In this document: piece after piece, positions 10,699 through 32,565 of the stretch
Layout: the number at the start of each line of letters is the position of its first letter
Position numbering within the stretch: position 1 is the first letter of the stretch
NCBI GenBank assembly: GCA_019245255.1
Contig: JAFARV010000085.1
Location: 1-35,426, forward strand
Direction of reading: 5' to 3'
Source of the DNA: Acidobacteriaceae bacterium
Lineage (GTDB): Bacteria; Acidobacteriota; Terriglobia; Bryobacterales; Bryobacteraceae
DNA: 35,426 bases
Notes under the pieces: model-generated
The model's input: only the letters and a program-made list of their open reading frames with translations
Databases searched by the model: none
Told to the model about the DNA's origin: nothing
Made by a program: the position numbers and the translations under genes

Positions 10699-11622
10699 CT
10701 AGGAAGGCAATAAATTAAACAGAGACGTTTGCGGCATCTTGGCCTCGGATGCCATGGCAGCCTGGAGGTTAGTCACATATTGCTGCATTTCGACGATGGC
10801 CGAAGTGGCGTCGGCGTCCTGGCGGTTCGAGAGATCCTGTTGATACGCAATGTTCTGACTTGAGGCCTGGGTGAGAGCTGCACTGACGCGGTTCTCAACA
10901 TTTCCATAGAACCCCTGCTGCTGGTTCAGGTAGGTCGACGCATCCTTCACGGCCGATGTAGCCGTCTGCAGGCCGGCGCTATCGTTATTTTGCAGCGCGA
11001 CACGGACCGCATTCATAGCTGCAAAGACGTTCCCTGTCGTGGGTTGATCGGAGCTGTCACGGGCGTCAAAAATTTGCGTCGCGGTTAGCGCAACGGGGAA
11101 CTTGTTGCCGGACGTGTCTTCCGCTTGGCGAGTCGAAGTTGTAACTTGCAGACGGTCGACACCAGTGGGCGAGTTCGCGTCGAACTGGTAGCTGGGGCTT
11201 TGATCGGCGTCACCGCTGAAAATGTATCGTCCGTCGACCTGGGTCTGAGTGAGCGAGACCATCTGCTGCATCAACGTTTGTACCTGGGAAGCGAGTGTCT
11301 GGCGCGTGGCGGCCGTCTGGTTCATCCCAAGGCCCTCGGCTGCCAACGTAGACACCTGATCGAGCACCGTGATACCGCTTGACAGGTTCTGGTCCGCGGT
11401 TGTAACTTCACCTTGCACGGCCGTCAGATTGGTTTGGATCTGCTGGTTCTGCTGAATGTTGGCGTGCAGTTGCAGAATATCGCTGACCTGGTCGGGCGCA
11501 TCCGCCGGAGTCTGTACCTTCAGGCCTGAAGACAATTCAGACTGCACCTGAGACAGGCGGGATTGCAGGTCATTAACGTTGGTTACAAATTGTAGCCCTG
11601 AAGCATTTAATCCAGATACCAT
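10699..11622 (-). CDS. flgL: Flagellar hook-associated protein 3 FlgL
   Basis: 307 residues with the flagellin-like N- and C-terminal helices: LQSRLSQVQSELSSGLKVQTPAD near the N-terminus (the flagellin SGL/RINSAADD-like segment) and NRQDADATSAIVEMQQYVTNLQAA at the C-terminus. VDGRYIFSGD in the middle is typical of FlgL. FlgL forms the junction between FlgK and the filament. The gene follows flgK by 27 bases and completes the flgM-flgN-flgK-flgL operon. Confidence 0.92.
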   Translation of the reverse strand: MVSGLNASGLQFVTNVNDLQSRLSQVQSELSSGLKVQTPADAPDQVSDILQLHANIQQNQQIQTNLTAVQGEVTTADQNLSSGITVLDQVSTLAAEGLGMNQTAATRQTLASQVQTLMQQMVSLTQTQVDGRYIFSGDADQSPSYQFDANSPTGVDRLQVTTSTRQAEDTSGNKFPVALTATQIFDARDSSDQPTTGNVFAAMNAVRVALQNNDSAGLQTATSAVKDASTYLNQQQGFYGNVENRVSAALTQASSQNIAYQQDLSNRQDADATSAIVEMQQYVTNLQAAMASEAKMPQTSLFNLLPS

Positions 11623-11649: not shown

Positions 11650-14600
11650 TTAGGCGCTTTGCGGGATGATTGCGAGTACGGACTGAACCATATCATCAAC
11701 GACCGTAATCATCTTTGAGGCGGCCTGGTACGCCATTTGATATTGCAGTACGCGAGTTGCTTCCTGGTTCAGATCTACTCCCGAAACCTGCTGGCGCAGC
11801 GACTGAGCCTGGGTGACGAGACCTTGCTGGACAGACTGCCCATTCTTAGCGTCCGACAGACTAGCGCCAACGGAACCCGCAATACTCCCGAAATAAGCAG
11901 TGAAGCTTTGGCCGTTGATTTCGTCGGTGCCGTCTGTCGGATTTGCCAGCCCGGCCAGAGTGAGTGCAACGGAATTCGCGCTGTTCTGATACGTGGCGGT
12001 GGTAGCCGTCAGTCCGAGCGTCGCATTTGCGGTCCCCGGGAGAATCTGAATGGATCCGTTGGGCCCGGTGTTTGTGGTTGCGAGCACCAGCGCGCCGCTA
12101 TTCGGGTCGAGACTCGCTGTCGCTCCGACGCCGAGCGACTTGAACTGGCCATTGAGGTCGTTCACAACACCGCTGAGCGTTGTATCGGCCGGATTCAGCG
12201 TGATCGCAGAAAGAGATTTCCCGTCGACCTGCAAGTTTAAGGTGTCGTTCGTCTTTGGCGTAATGGTGAATGCAGGCGATAATGCCGTTCCCGCCAGAGA
12301 GGTCAACTGCGGCGATGGCAGGCTCACTGGCCTGGTGTTCCCAAGCCCGAGCGTCGCATTCGCGCTTCCTGCAAGCAGTTGGATCGAGCCGCCAGGCCCG
12401 GTATTGGTAGTCGCAAGCACGAATCCGCCGGTATTCTCGTCGAGACTCGCCGTGGCGCCAATGCCCTGCGATTTAAACTGGCCGTTCAGGTCTGCGACTA
12501 CAGCGCTGAGACTCGTGTCGGCCGGATTCAGCCTAATCCCTGGGACAGAGTTGCCGTCCACCTGTAAGTTCAGGGCGTCGTTTGTGCCTCCAGTAATGGT
12601 GAAAGGGGCAGAAACACCGGCTCCCATTAGCGCCGATACGGGCGCTGGCTGGCTAACCGGCGTGGTAGCCGCAAGTCCGAGCGTCGCATTCGCGCTTCCC
12701 GAGAGAATTTGGATCGATCCACTCGTCCCCGTGTTGGTGGTTGCAAGTACGAGCGCACCGGTATTCGGGTTCAGGCTTGCGGTCGCGCCAATGCCGAGCG
12801 ATTTAAATTGACCATTCAGGTCCGTCACCACACTGTTGAGACTGGTATCCCCGGAATTGAGCGCGATTCCCGGGACAGATTTGCCGTCGACCTTCAAATT
12901 CAGGGCGTCGTTTGTGCCGGCAGTAATGGTGAATGGAGCTGCAACAGCCGTCCCCATCAGAGCCGAAACCTGTGGTGATGACACGCTAACCGGCGTCGCC
13001 GCGGTAAGCCCGAGCGTGGCATTCGCGTTTCCTGTAAGAACCTGGATGGATCCGTTGGGCCCGGTGTTGGTGGTGGCAAGCACGAGCGCGCCGGTATTTG
13101 CGTCAAGACTCGCCGCCGCCCCAATGCCGAGGGACTTGAATTGCCCGTTGAGGTCGGCCACCACGCTGCCCAGCGTTGTATCGGCCGGATTCAGCGTGAT
13201 CGGGGAAAGAGATTTACCGTCGACCTGTAAGTTCAGGGTGTCGTTTGTACCCGGCGTAATCGCAAATGGAGCGCCGACGGCTGTTCCTGCCAGAGCCGGA
13301 ACCTGCGGCGATGCCACATTGACGGAGGTCGTGTTCGTGAGACCAAGGGTCGTATTCGCGTTTCCGGAAAGAATTTGAATGGAACCGTTGGGCCCGGTGT
13401 TGGTGGTGGCAAGCACGAGCGCGCCGGTATTTGCGTCAAGACTCGCCGCCGCCCCAATGCCGAGCGATTTGAACTGGCTGTTCAGGTCCGTGGCGACAGC
13501 ATTCAGACTGCTGTCGGCCGGATTCAGCGTAATCGGTGAAATCGTCTTGCCGTCAACTTGAAGCTTTACTGTGTCGTTTGTTCCTGGAGTGATTGTCAAC
13601 GCGGGTGTACTGGCCGTCCCCGTCAGGGCTGATACCTGTGCAGACGGCAAGTTTGTGGCTGTGACATTCGGATTTATCTGCAGAGTTGCGGCTGTGCTGG
13701 TCCCGCTCGTCTGATCGTAGGTGAACAGCGGCACGCCTAAAACAGTGTTTACCCGGTCGGCGAAGGTCCTCGCCAGTTCGTTTAGAGAACCGGTTTGGCT
13801 GCTGTCGCCTTGAAGGCCAGGCAGTATCTGGTTGCGTACTGCGATGGCGCCGGCGAGCTTGCCGGTCGTAATTTCAGTGGTAACGTCATTGCCATGCGAA
13901 TCGGTGACTTGCGCCTGCGGAGGGGGGTTGACGGCAAGCCCGAGGGTGGTATTTGCAGTCCCGGAAAGGATCTCGACCGATGCGCCGGCGCCGGTCGATC
14001 CTGACGCCATCACAAGCTGGGTTCCGGTGGAATCAACGCTCGCCTTCGTCGTACTGCCCATGGCCTGCAACTGCGTGTTGATGTCGTGCGCTACGGCAGC
14101 TACTGTCGTATCGCTCGGACTCAGAGTTATCGGCTTCGACAGCGCCTTGCCGTCGATTTTCAAGTTCAAGGCATCGTTAACGCCGGCTGTAATCTGGATC
14201 GGAACGTGTACGGGGGCGCCGCTTTGCACGACAGGAGTTGTCGGAACGTAGACCGCGGCGGTCAATTTGTTCACCGTCGAACCGTCCACCAGCTCAGTCT
14301 GTCCGCCGAGCATCACGCGGAACGTTCCGTCCGGCTCCTTGATGGTCATCACATTGGCGACCTCGGACAGCTGTTCCAAAGTACTGTTCACGGCTGCATC
14401 GACGGACGGATCCAGCTGCCCGCCGGCAGAGATCTGGGCGTTATAGCCCGCCAACTGCGCTGCCAGTTGATTGACTTGACCGGTCAAATTGCTGACCTCG
14501 CCGTCTGTGTTTTGAGCCACTGTGGACACGTTCGCGGCTGTACTGTTGAATGCAGAAGCGACGGTTTGGGCTTGATTGATGACTGCTTGCCGGGTAACGC

Positions 14601-14993: not shown

Positions 14994-15335
14994 CTACAGA
15001 TGAACCAGCGTGGTTGACGAACCGTACGGTTCCAGGCTCTTGATTGTGCCGCCGCGCTCATACGAGCCGAAATTTGCCGCCCGCAACGCCTGGAGGCCTT
15101 CGTAGAATTTGACGGGAGCTTCCATCAACTTCCGGATGGCGGCCATTTCCCGCGGAACGCCGGATAGGAACGCACGTTCGTTACCGCCGGGCGCAGCAGT
15201 CTGCATCGCAGCGATCGGCTGCAGCAATGCCGCGATCGTTTCCAACTTCCCGGTAACCTGATCGAAGTTCTCGGGCGTGGGATCGGTCAACAGACGGTGT
15301 ATGTCGCGAATCTCCTGGGCCGCGCTTTCGACCAT
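14994..15335 (-). CDS. Small helical protein, probable FlgN-type export chaperone
   Basis: 113 residues, mostly predicted helical: MVESAAQEIRDIHRLLTDPT, LETIAALLQPIAAMQ and FYEGLQALRAANFG. There is no signal peptide or membrane segment. It lies between flgM and flgK with only 10-11 bases on each side, exactly where flgN, the chaperone for FlgK and FlgL, is normally found. Sequence similarity to FlgN itself is weak by eye, so the assignment is mainly from position, size and helix content. The C-terminal FGSYERGGTIKSLEPYG is not typical of E. coli FlgN. Confidence 0.6.
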   Translation of the reverse strand: MVESAAQEIRDIHRLLTDPTPENFDQVTGKLETIAALLQPIAAMQTAAPGGNERAFLSGVPREMAAIRKLMEAPVKFYEGLQALRAANFGSYERGGTIKSLEPYGSSTTLVHL

Positions 15336-17374: not shown

Positions 17375-18256
17375 ATGTTCGCAATTATCGGCATCGTTGT
17401 GGTCATCGGCGCAATCCTAGGCGGCTACCTCATGGAGAAAGGGCCACTTATGGTCTTGGTGCAGCCTGCGGAGCTGCTCATCATCGGTGGTGCATCGCTG
17501 GGGACTGTCCTCATCGCAAATCCCCTGCCTACGGTTATCAAGCTGTTCAAAGGCATCCTCGGCATTCTCGGGGGCAGCAAGTATACTCAGGCGTCCTATC
17601 TCGAAAGTTTAAAGATGCTGAGCGACCTGTTTCAGTTCGCACGCAAGAACGGCTTGCCAAAGCTCGAAGCGGACCTGGATGAGCCGGAAAAGAGCGCCGT
17701 CTTCAGCAAGTACCCGAAGTTTCTTGCCGACCATCATGCGGTGGCATTTGTGTGCGACACACTGCGCATGTTCATCAGCGCTGGTGCCGATCCGTTTGAC
17801 CTGGACCAAATGATGGAACTCGATATGGAGGTTCATCATCACGAAACACAAGAGCCGACGGCGGCGCTGGCAACCATGGCCGATTCCCTGCCCGGATTGG
17901 GAATTGTTGCCGCGGTGCTGGGCATTGTCATCACCATGGGTGCAATTGGAGGCCCGCCTGAGCAGATCGGCCATAAGGTAGCGGCGGCGCTTGTCGGTAC
18001 CTTCCTCGGCATTCTGATGTGCTATGGCTTCATCGGGCCGATCGCAGCCAACCTGACGAAGATCAATGAGGCCGACGGCCAGTACTATCATTTTCTGCGC
18101 GTGGGTGTGCTGGCCTTTATCAAGGGTTCATCACCCATGACAGCGGTTGAATTTGCGCGGCGGTCGATTCCATCGAGCGTTCGCCCAAGCTTTAAGGAAA
18201 TGGAAACCGCCTGCCGCGGGGGCGCCGCGGCACCGGCGCCTGCGGCCGCGGCGTAG
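17375..18256 (+). CDS. motA: Flagellar stator protein MotA
   Basis: 293 residues with four membrane segments: ~1-20 (FAIIGIVVVIGAILGGYLM), ~30-50 (PAELLIIGGASLGTVLIAN), ~170-190 (LPGLGIVAAVLGIVITMGAIGGPP, the Pro-containing proton-channel region) and ~200-220 (LVGTFLGILMCYGFIGP). The cytoplasmic loop with KYPKFLADHHAVAFVCDTLRMFISAG touches FliG. The C-terminus ends in an Ala/Pro tail (AAAPAPAAAA) not needed for function. The gene is followed after 3 bases by motB, and both share one transcript. Confidence 0.95.
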   Translation: MFAIIGIVVVIGAILGGYLMEKGPLMVLVQPAELLIIGGASLGTVLIANPLPTVIKLFKGILGILGGSKYTQASYLESLKMLSDLFQFARKNGLPKLEADLDEPEKSAVFSKYPKFLADHHAVAFVCDTLRMFISAGADPFDLDQMMELDMEVHHHETQEPTAALATMADSLPGLGIVAAVLGIVITMGAIGGPPEQIGHKVAAALVGTFLGILMCYGFIGPIAANLTKINEADGQYYHFLRVGVLAFIKGSSPMTAVEFARRSIPSSVRPSFKEMETACRGGAAAPAPAAAA

Positions 18257-18259
18257 TCT

Positions 18260-19096
18260 ATGGACTCGCGCCGGCCGATCATCATCAAAAAGAAAGTCGT
18301 CCACGGCGGTCATCATGGGGGCGCGTGGAAGGTTGCCTACGCCGATTTTGTGACGGCCATGATGGCACTGTTTATTGTGCTCTGGCTGCTCACGTCAAAT
18401 GAGAAGGTGCGTCAGGCAGTGGGCGGTTACTTCAAGGATCCGATTGGCCGCGGCAAGAATCCCGGCACCAGCATGACCGGTACGGGGCGCGACGTTTCCG
18501 TGCTGAAGGATGACATGAGCGGCCTCAAGGAGAAGCTGCAGTCTGTAATCAAGCTGATTCCCCACTTCGAACAAATGAAGGGAAATGTCGAGTTCACCAT
18601 CACCGAAGAAGGTCTCAAGATCGATCTGATCGAGAACTCGAAGGGCATCTTCTTCGAATCAGGCAAGCCGCAACCAAGCGATCTTGGGAAGGAGCTTCTG
18701 GTTGCGCTCGCGAAGGAACTTGGCCGGTTACCGAACCGGCTCCTGATCGAAGGTCATACCGATGCACAGCAGTATGCCGATGTGACGGCGTACTCGAATT
18801 GGGAACTCTCCGCCGACCGTTCCAATGCCGCCCGGCGCTTAATGGAAGCTAACGGGCTGGCATCCAACCAAGTCGCACAGATCAGAGGTTATGCCGATCA
18901 AGATCTGCGGAACAAAAATAATCCGGAAGATCCCGCGAATCGCCGGGTCTCCGTTATCGTCCGCTATTTGGATGCCCCGAAGCAGGTGAAGCTCAACTCG
19001 CTAGAGGGTAAAGTTCAGGAGACCGAGCAGCACCCCGTTGTCAACCCTGCAGGCATTGTGGTTCCGGCCAGCGCCAAATCGCCAAAAGGCCACTAG
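18260..19096 (+). CDS. motB: Flagellar stator protein MotB
   Basis: 278 residues. A basic N-terminus (IIIKKKVVHGGHHGGAWKVA) precedes the single membrane helix, with the essential proton-binding Asp at D29 in YADFVTAMMALFIVLWLL. A plug/linker follows, then the OmpA-like peptidoglycan-binding domain with LLIEGHTDAQ, WELSADRSNAARRLM and NRRVSVIVRY. A proton rather than sodium motor is suggested by MotB-type features, but I cannot prove it. The stop codon overlaps the stop of the convergent rep-like gene in the four bases CTAG, marking a sharp edge of the motility block. Confidence 0.95.
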   Translation: MDSRRPIIIKKKVVHGGHHGGAWKVAYADFVTAMMALFIVLWLLTSNEKVRQAVGGYFKDPIGRGKNPGTSMTGTGRDVSVLKDDMSGLKEKLQSVIKLIPHFEQMKGNVEFTITEEGLKIDLIENSKGIFFESGKPQPSDLGKELLVALAKELGRLPNRLLIEGHTDAQQYADVTAYSNWELSADRSNAARRLMEANGLASNQVAQIRGYADQDLRNKNNPEDPANRRVSVIVRYLDAPKQVKLNSLEGKVQETEQHPVVNPAGIVVPASAKSPKGH

Positions 19097-28939: not shown

Positions 28940-29251
28940 TATCTGATTGACCGGCACACCGTCACCGAAGCCCGTGCGCGCGGATGGGGAGAGCTTGGAA
29001 ACGGCGAGCTTTTAAACGAAGCCGAAGCCGCAGGACTTGAAGTATTGGTAACGACAGACCGCAATATCAGGTATCAGCAAAATCTTGCCGGTCGTAAAAT
29101 CGCTCTTGTCGTTTTGGGCAAAGGCCGGTGGACCATCATAAAGCCACATATCACCGAGATTGTGGCCACCATCGCTGCCGCCACTCCCGGCAGCTACGTC
29201 GAGGTGGAGATTCCGTCCGCGCCGAAGTTGAACGTCAGGCAGAAACCGTGA
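28940..29251 (+). pseudogene. DUF5615 PIN-like toxin, 3' fragment
   Basis: 103 codons without a start: YLIDRHTVTEARARGWGELG, NGELLNEAEAAGLEVLVTTD, RNIRYQQNLAGR and KIALVVLGKGRW are the conserved remainder of the DUF5615 family, including the Asp of VTTDRN. Joined to 25826-25870 it gives a 118-residue protein, the normal size. No stop or frameshift has yet accumulated, so the insertion is probably young. Its 3' end overlaps the convergent deacetylase gene by 17 bases. Confidence 0.85.
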
Positions 29252-30134
29252 CTGCTTCTGCAACGCCGAAGGACTGCTCCGGACTGATGCGGGCGTAGAC
29301 GTCCCGGATGGTCGAAAACCGGAAATCCTGCAAGAGGCGCGTGAGCTTTGGTCCCATGCTGCTGAGCCCTAAATACGTTCGCATGCGGGCAATCGGACCG
29401 TTTGCCAGCCGCGGCTGGCCAGGGTCAACTTCCCATGGATGCACATAGACGCAGGCAGGCTCGCCTTCCACACGATTGACTCTTCGAATGCCCGCTGCCG
29501 TGTAGCGATAAGGAAAAATGCGTAAATAACCTCCACCGCCAATCGGAGCCACGCGATTCCCGGAGAGTTGCACAGTCGCAACCGGGATTTCCGTGATCTG
29601 ACCCGAAGGAGTGTGGATCACATGTGCGTGACGCGGCGAGCCGGGAATGCCATACCGGTCATGCACAATGGGGCAAATGCTCGAGTCATGCGTGAAGCCG
29701 CACTCGGCAAGGACGTCGAGTGCCCAGAGACTGTTCTCGGTTATGGAAAAGCTCGGCGCGCGGTAGGTTCTCGGAGTCACACCGCAGGCGTCTTCGATGG
29801 CCTTAACAGCCGCTTTCGTATCGGCCTTAAATTGCGTGGGCGAGAGCTCATAGACCAACCGGTGTTCATGGCTGTGACACGCGATCTCATGTCCGGCCGC
29901 GGCAATGCGCCGGACCAAATATGGATGTTCAGAAGCGACCCATCCGAGGATAAAGAATGTCGCCCGAACATCGAATGCCTCGAGCAAATCTAAAACGTAT
30001 GCCGTACCGCTTTCGACTCGAGAGGGCAGGGAAGACCATTGAGCGGAGCTGACATGAGCTCCGACTTCGCTCGGATGAAAGTATTCCTCTACGTCTACGC
30101 TAAATGCATTCAGCATGGTCTCAGAGGTACTCAT
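29235..30134 (-). CDS. XrtA/PEP-CTERM-type polysaccharide deacetylase (NodB fold + DUF3473)
   Basis: 299 residues. LNAFSVDVEEYFHPSEVG gives the first Asp pair of the family; RATFFILGWVAS, IAAAGHEIACHSHEHRLVYE (metal His motif) and TYRAPSFSITENSLWALDVL are NodB-homology motifs. The C-terminal region PACVYVHPWEVDPGQPR and RFSTIRDVYA is the DUF3473 tail found in deacetylases of exosortase-A exopolysaccharide loci. It removes acetyl groups from a cell-surface polysaccharide. No exosortase gene is in the window, but PEP-CTERM proteins encoded nearby support the link. Confidence 0.88.
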   Translation of the reverse strand: MSTSETMLNAFSVDVEEYFHPSEVGAHVSSAQWSSLPSRVESGTAYVLDLLEAFDVRATFFILGWVASEHPYLVRRIAAAGHEIACHSHEHRLVYELSPTQFKADTKAAVKAIEDACGVTPRTYRAPSFSITENSLWALDVLAECGFTHDSSICPIVHDRYGIPGSPRHAHVIHTPSGQITEIPVATVQLSGNRVAPIGGGGYLRIFPYRYTAAGIRRVNRVEGEPACVYVHPWEVDPGQPRLANGPIARMRTYLGLSSMGPKLTRLLQDFRFSTIRDVYARISPEQSFGVAEAVTVSA

Positions 30135-31863: not shown

Positions 31864-32565
31864 ATGCTAAAAATTTCAGGCGCCGTGCTTTCCGCGGCGC
31901 TCGTTTTATCCACATTCGCAGCCACAGCACAAGCTGCGATGGAAGTACAGGTAACCGATAACGTTTCCACCGTAACCGTAGCCGACCAGGGAGCGGGTGA
32001 TACGAATCCGATTGCAGGTATACTGTCAACCGACATCCCGCAACTTTATTTGATAGGGGTCAACAATGCGACGATTACCGCGGCGGGAAGTCCTGCGATC
32101 GGGCAAGGCGCATTAGATCTGAATGATCTCGACATCGCCGTCGGCTCGGCCACGACGATTACGGTAGAGCTTTCCGAAAACAATCAAACGTCGCCGACCG
32201 GCCCAGCTTATCTGAATCAACAGTTCAGCCTGACTTCACTCTCCGGGAACGCGACCGTGACTCTGACGGGGTATGAAAACAACTCGAATACGCTGTTCGA
32301 TACCACCGGATTGGCAACCAACCCGTTGTCACTTTCTACCGTCGGCGGCCTGACGGACTCATCCGCTGTCGGATCGTTCAGCTCGCCGTACTCGTTGACC
32401 GAAGTTGCGACCATCGTATTCCACACCATGGGTACGCTGGACCTGCAATTTACTGGCAACCTCTCAGCTTCACCGGTTCCGGAGCCGACCTCGATCCTGC
32501 TATTCGGAACGGTTCTCGCGGCAGCCGGCCTCGTGATGCGGAAGCGTTTCGTAGCCAACAACTAG
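31864..32565 (+). CDS. PEP-CTERM sorting-signal protein, copy 1
   Basis: 233 residues: signal peptide MLKISGAVLSAALVLSTFAA (cleavage after AQA), a polar beta-rich body (~25-205), and the PEP-CTERM signal SPVPEPTSILLFGTVLAAAG followed by MRKRF: the VPEP motif, a hydrophobic helix and a basic end. Such proteins are processed by exosortase and placed on the surface or in the exopolysaccharide matrix. The body has no known domain. GGAGGAG lies just upstream of the ATG. The signal peptide (first ~27 residues) and the C-terminus are almost identical with copy 2, while the body differs in ~20-25% of positions. Confidence 0.9.
   Translation: MLKISGAVLSAALVLSTFAATAQAAMEVQVTDNVSTVTVADQGAGDTNPIAGILSTDIPQLYLIGVNNATITAAGSPAIGQGALDLNDLDIAVGSATTITVELSENNQTSPTGPAYLNQQFSLTSLSGNATVTLTGYENNSNTLFDTTGLATNPLSLSTVGGLTDSSAVGSFSSPYSLTEVATIVFHTMGTLDLQFTGNLSASPVPEPTSILLFGTVLAAAGLVMRKRFVANN

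Follow-up and report, generated by a model that had tools for sequence, protein, structure and literature searches.

Results

The flgK locus and its two insertions

The window, the whole stretch of 35,426 nucleotides analysed here (contig JAFARV010000085.1 of an Acidobacteriaceae bacterium assembly, GCA_019245255.1, GTDB family Bryobacteraceae), contains on its minus strand a flgK gene, whose product joins the flagellar hook to the filament, together with the neighbouring reading frames collected in Table 1. The gene order, a flgM-like frame and a frame in the position of flgN, then flgK and flgL, is that expected for FlgK, and antisense frames overlapping flgK were taken as shadow frames. Elsewhere in the window a MotA/MotB pair lies at 17375-19096 (Pfam), and positions 29235-30134 and 31864-32565 hold an XrtA-system polysaccharide deacetylase and a PEP-CTERM protein.

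Table 1. Features at the flgK locus of the window (positions of the forward strand)
Feature	Position	Strand	Evidence
flgL, 307 aa, without inserted unit	10699-11622	-	TIGR02550, 136.9 bits
flgK, hook-filament junction protein with two insertions, 1110 aa	11650-14982	-	ORF; TIGR02492; Pfam FlgK_D1; alignment with 29 relatives
Insertion 2 (aa 455-1000), five tandem units	11983-13620	-	TRF; about 27 aligned relatives have almost no residues here
Unit K5 core	12010-12273	-	HMM E 3.0e-44
Unit K4 core	12343-12606	-	HMM E 2.7e-43
Unit K3 core	12673-12936	-	HMM E 1.1e-42
Unit K2 core	13006-13269	-	HMM E 1.5e-44; structure model pLDDT 92
Unit K1 core, 88 aa	13339-13602	-	HMM E 2.5e-43
80-bp exact match of K1 to K2 (13052-13131)	13385-13464	-	Gene-conversion trace
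Insertion 1 (aa 248-353), with diverged unit K0 (13936-14202)	13924-14241	-	Unit HMM E 3.3e-37; missing in relatives
Small ORF, 113 aa, in the place of the FlgK/FlgL chaperone flgN	14994-15335	-	Position only; no Pfam match
flgM-like anti-sigma-28 factor, 98 aa	15346-15642	-	PF04316, E 0.0011, 19.6 bits, below the cut-off of 25

The FlgK assignment is supported by a TIGR02492 score of 211.5 bits (cut-off 170.75), by the Pfam domains FlgK_D1, Flg_bb_rod and Flg_bbr_C and by the conservation of both the N and the C ends. When aligned with FlgK from 29 relatives, the protein separates into 458 core amino acids and two insertions, which more than double its length; with both insertions taken out the core is similar to the FlgK of the relatives (450-490 amino acids). 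An earlier sequence-only reading of the window had described a FlgK of about 1110 amino acids with five tandem modules of about 111 residues at 11992-13632, and the frame, the unit length and the array itself are borne out with closely similar boundaries. The count of five applies to the array in the second insertion; a sixth, diverged unit in the first insertion had been missed.

Sequence and history of the array units

The tandem repeat (TRF) extends over 12014-13541 with a period of 333, 4.6 copies and a score of 1361, and the unit starts are spaced 111, 111, 110 and 111 residues apart. Pairwise identities among the five full-length array units are 63-77% at the protein level and 69-77% at the DNA level, and unit K0 has a protein identity of about 42-45% to them. 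Silent sites between the array units are near saturation, with 38-58% of third codon positions differing, and dN is 0.09-0.19 compared with a dS of about 0.7-2.0, which indicates that the units are old copies under purifying selection.

The sequence-only reading had also noted about 80 identical bases between two copies. This run is exact and occurs once, the K1/K2 pair being the only one to share an exact tract of more than 31 bp. Third positions of K1 and K2 are identical at 26 of 26 sites within the tract compared with 22 of 62 outside it, and an identical run of this length was reached in 0 of 100,000 codon shuffles. An earlier conversion event involving units 1 and 2 is well supported as the origin of the tract, which is no evidence of present copy-number change; the proposal that the units are recombining now, so that their number may vary among cells, was overstated given the high dS and the single exact tract.

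Homology and fold of the unit

A profile was constructed from eight units, the six of FlgK and two of the hook protein FlgE described below. It matches FliD genes from Pseudomonadota, Nitrospirota and one genome labelled Actinomycetota with E values down to 4e-14, as well as a FlgL-like gene of Nitrospirota (named by eye), a Clostridia flagellin, giant flagellins of the organism's own family and a phage-type tail sheath. Among solved structures the profile matches FliD (PDB code 5FHY, E 8.7e-5). A single unit modelled with 39 aligned units gives a confident model (pLDDT 92, pTM 0.84) with strands, a helix at 45-59 and further strands, and its best fold matches in the PDB are FliD and phage sheath, the lowest E value being 2.7e-3 at a probability of 1.00. 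Flagellar axial proteins, phage tail or neck proteins and related cell-surface flagellins account for all of the first 20 PDB matches, and the named viral matches are headed by phage tail-sheath and baseplate proteins. The FliD D2/D3 head domains (PDB codes 5FHY, 5XLK and 5H5T) are similar to the FlgK unit in both profile and fold; FliD, however, is a cap protein with few domains and, unlike the FlgK of the window, has no five-fold tandem array.

The Pfam hook IN motif (PF07196, Flagellin_IN) has no match on FlgK at E < 1, and a search of the whole genome with this profile gave none at E <= 0.001; hmmscan places it in the genome's own flagellin (23.1 bits), which has two such stretches. Matches of PF07196 and of the unit profile overlap in this flagellin and in the FliD of L079. 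Because the Pfam model does not match FlgK the unit is filed as hook-IN-like and not as a member of PF07196, and by profile homology and modelled fold it is a FliD-D2/hook-IN-like domain. The term hook-IN-like, already used in the sequence-only reading, is appropriate at this level of homology and fold and does not extend to the Pfam model itself.

A 2007 survey described a beta-grasp domain in FliD, FlgL, FlgK and Mu-like phage tail proteins (PMC1949818), which by its description resembles the unit in its host proteins and in having strands and one long helix; the sheath and baseplate matches of the unit parallel its Mu-like tail hosts. The FlgK units also match the phage family phrog_19400, whose function is unknown (whole-protein E 2e-16). 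A unit-like stretch, GPFxIxAxxNDTLTFxIDG, is present in four family genomes (L053, L058, L063 and L065) in frames that by eye are not flagellar, the L058 fragment having no Pfam match.

Units in the hook and filament proteins of the same genome

Beyond the window, two units are found in FlgE of the same genome (L040; G000:C723, 1-1671, minus strand) with E values of 1e-37 to 1e-38, and no closer relatives of the FlgK units were found. The FlgE frame lies on a different contig from flgK in a draft genome that is 79% complete, and at the contig end, where it is truncated, it already has at least 559 amino acids compared with 409-507 in congeners (fragments of 260 and 274 amino acids not counted). 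In the congener FlgE only a short linker is present where the two units are inserted here. The flagellin (L086 4704-8474, minus strand; G000:C252), with 1256 amino acids, also carries about five units, more distant and with E 0.037 for the weakest, and its frame of 1270 amino acids compares with 281-750 in congeners. The same contig holds a second pair (L086 52-1544) that is MotA/MotB-like by eye. The genome's FliD (frame of 473 amino acids) is not enlarged and has no unit match, and FlgL, the component between FlgK and the filament, has normal length and no inserted unit.

A phylogeny built from 39 units unites all six from FlgK with the two from FlgE (support 91/80), the latter branching first, and places the flagellin units apart. 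The FlgK and FlgE units appear to constitute one domain lineage, with moderate support, and the grouping favors intragenomic spread between flgE and flgK. The early branching of the FlgE units suggests that FlgE would be the more likely source, a direction to be taken as provisional.

FlgK length and domain sharing among relatives

The family and phylum lists used for comparison are samples. A FlgK match is present in 136 of 150 family genomes, and among the matches listed no other FlgK frame exceeds 711 amino acids. In the phylum sample a match is present in 114 of 396 genomes and the FlgK of the window is the longest, the next-longest frame having 816 amino acids with a match that spans only about 460 codons. 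The unit profile has no match at E <= 0.01 in any of the 16 other genomes of the genus, and a profile scan of genome contigs from other species gave relatives in FliD, FlgL and flagellin and no FlgK array. Two proteobacterial FlgK frames of 781 (L123) and 929 amino acids (L121) have insertions in roughly the same place and were set aside, the unit profile having no match in either.

The congener G014 has a FlgK of 708 amino acids (L031 3930-6056, plus strand) with an insertion of its own of about 222 amino acids, different from those in the window. The outer domain of the flagellin from G014 itself is 51% identical to this insertion and, in the set of flagellins compared, its best match, if narrowly (E 2.9e-49, with 4.7e-49 for the G004 flagellin). 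In family f3 (L035, L036 and L037) FlgK and FlgL share an outer domain of about 200 amino acids with 42-50% identity within a genome; this sharing is likely to be older, since identity among the FlgK orthologues is higher (about 64%).

Discussion

The arrangement is probably best explained by an ordinary FlgK core to which FliD-D2/hook-IN-like domains were added, forming a structural collar suited to the enlargement of hook and filament. A junction core of about 458 amino acids would have received beta-alpha-beta domains, putatively of the beta-grasp type, at two outer-region loops, with one copy in the first and five in the second, the latter through tandem duplication and at least one later conversion. 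The 11 FlgK subunits would carry these extra domains outside the conserved D0/D1 core, and the resulting bulky collar may extend the surface of the enlarged hook and filament and bear load between them. Within the genome the domains may have passed between neighbouring axial genes, and the presence of the unit in FlgK, FlgE and flagellin suggests that neighbouring machine parts are enlarged with the same brick. A full-length FlgK model from the single sequence reached a pLDDT of only 38, so the prediction that the array faces outward draws on the known architecture of FlgK, an 11-subunit ring with an exposed D2 (PMC12221982).

The closest published precedent is FlgK1 of the Fla1 flagellum of Rhodobacter sphaeroides, which has 1363 amino acids, conserved ends and a central insertion of 860 amino acids with at least three hook-IN motifs and internal repeats (PMC7277832). 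The region of hook-associated proteins at the junction is bulky and needed for swimming under load; deletions of 100 amino acids in FlgK1 reduce swimming, and with two of these the flagella look normal and the cells cannot swim in liquid (PMC7277832). By this description the FlgK of the window is similar in being oversize with conserved ends, a large insertion and repeats. In the available part of that report, however, the repeats are not described as a regular array and domain sharing with the hook protein is not reported, unlike the situation here, and FlgK1 has hook-IN motifs where the FlgK of the window has no direct PF07196 match. This precedent and the exposed D2 make a load-bearing collar the most likely reading. 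The suggestion in the sequence-only reading that such an array is uncommon agrees with the sampled family and phylum, in which none is as long, but a comparable protein is on record in R. sphaeroides. Giant flagellins with tandem domain-extension regions (PMC6248924) provide a further case of an axial protein enlarged through duplication of outer domains, although there it is a filament protein with two copies of a domain defined in Oceanospirillales and relatives.

A non-adaptive origin, in which near-harmless tandem duplications at tolerant loops were kept by drift, would be in keeping with the wide variation in FlgK length and with the different insertion of G014 within the same genus. It is nevertheless an unlikely explanation, as the units are under purifying selection (dN well below dS), FlgE, FlgK and flagellin (FliC) are enlarged in a matched way in one genome, and deletions in R. 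sphaeroides FlgK1 are harmful (PMC7277832). Still less probable is a variable surface array, in which unequal recombination changes the number of units among cells and alters an exposed part of the flagellum: the conversion tract between adjacent units and the exposure of outer domains in axial proteins (PMC12221982) are compatible with it, but the dS values, the absence of any other exact inter-unit repeat above 31 bp, the limitation of FlgK to an 11-subunit ring and the purifying selection on the units, as judged from one genome, argue against it. A role of such an array in surface binding or in escape from flagellum-dependent phages or predators is held to be similarly improbable. An assembly artefact, collapse or expansion in a fragmented metagenome-derived draft of 1041 contigs and 79% completeness, is very improbable considering that the longest exact repeat in flgK is 80 bp and each unit has its own sequence, that the frame is unbroken across 1110 codons and that related units occur independently on another contig.

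The collar and the shared FlgK/FlgE lineage are themselves weakened by the moderate support (91/80) for the joint group, by the truncation of the FlgE contig and by FlgL not being enlarged. The relatives point to a wider reading, offered tentatively, in which FlgK acts as a general acceptor, taking up outer domains of its axial neighbours through exchange inside genomes. The partners in such exchange might be FlgE here, as donor or in both directions, flagellin in G014 and FlgL in family f3, again as a tentative assignment.

The flagellar axis is a continuous tube of different proteins that need to fit one another. The same brick in the hook, the junction and, more distantly, the filament suggests a testable route by which the structure may be rescaled without broken joints, and the other bricks common to FlgK and flagellin or FlgL in the relatives suggest the same route. 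If FlgK is indeed a general acceptor, the diameters of hook, junction and filament could change together.
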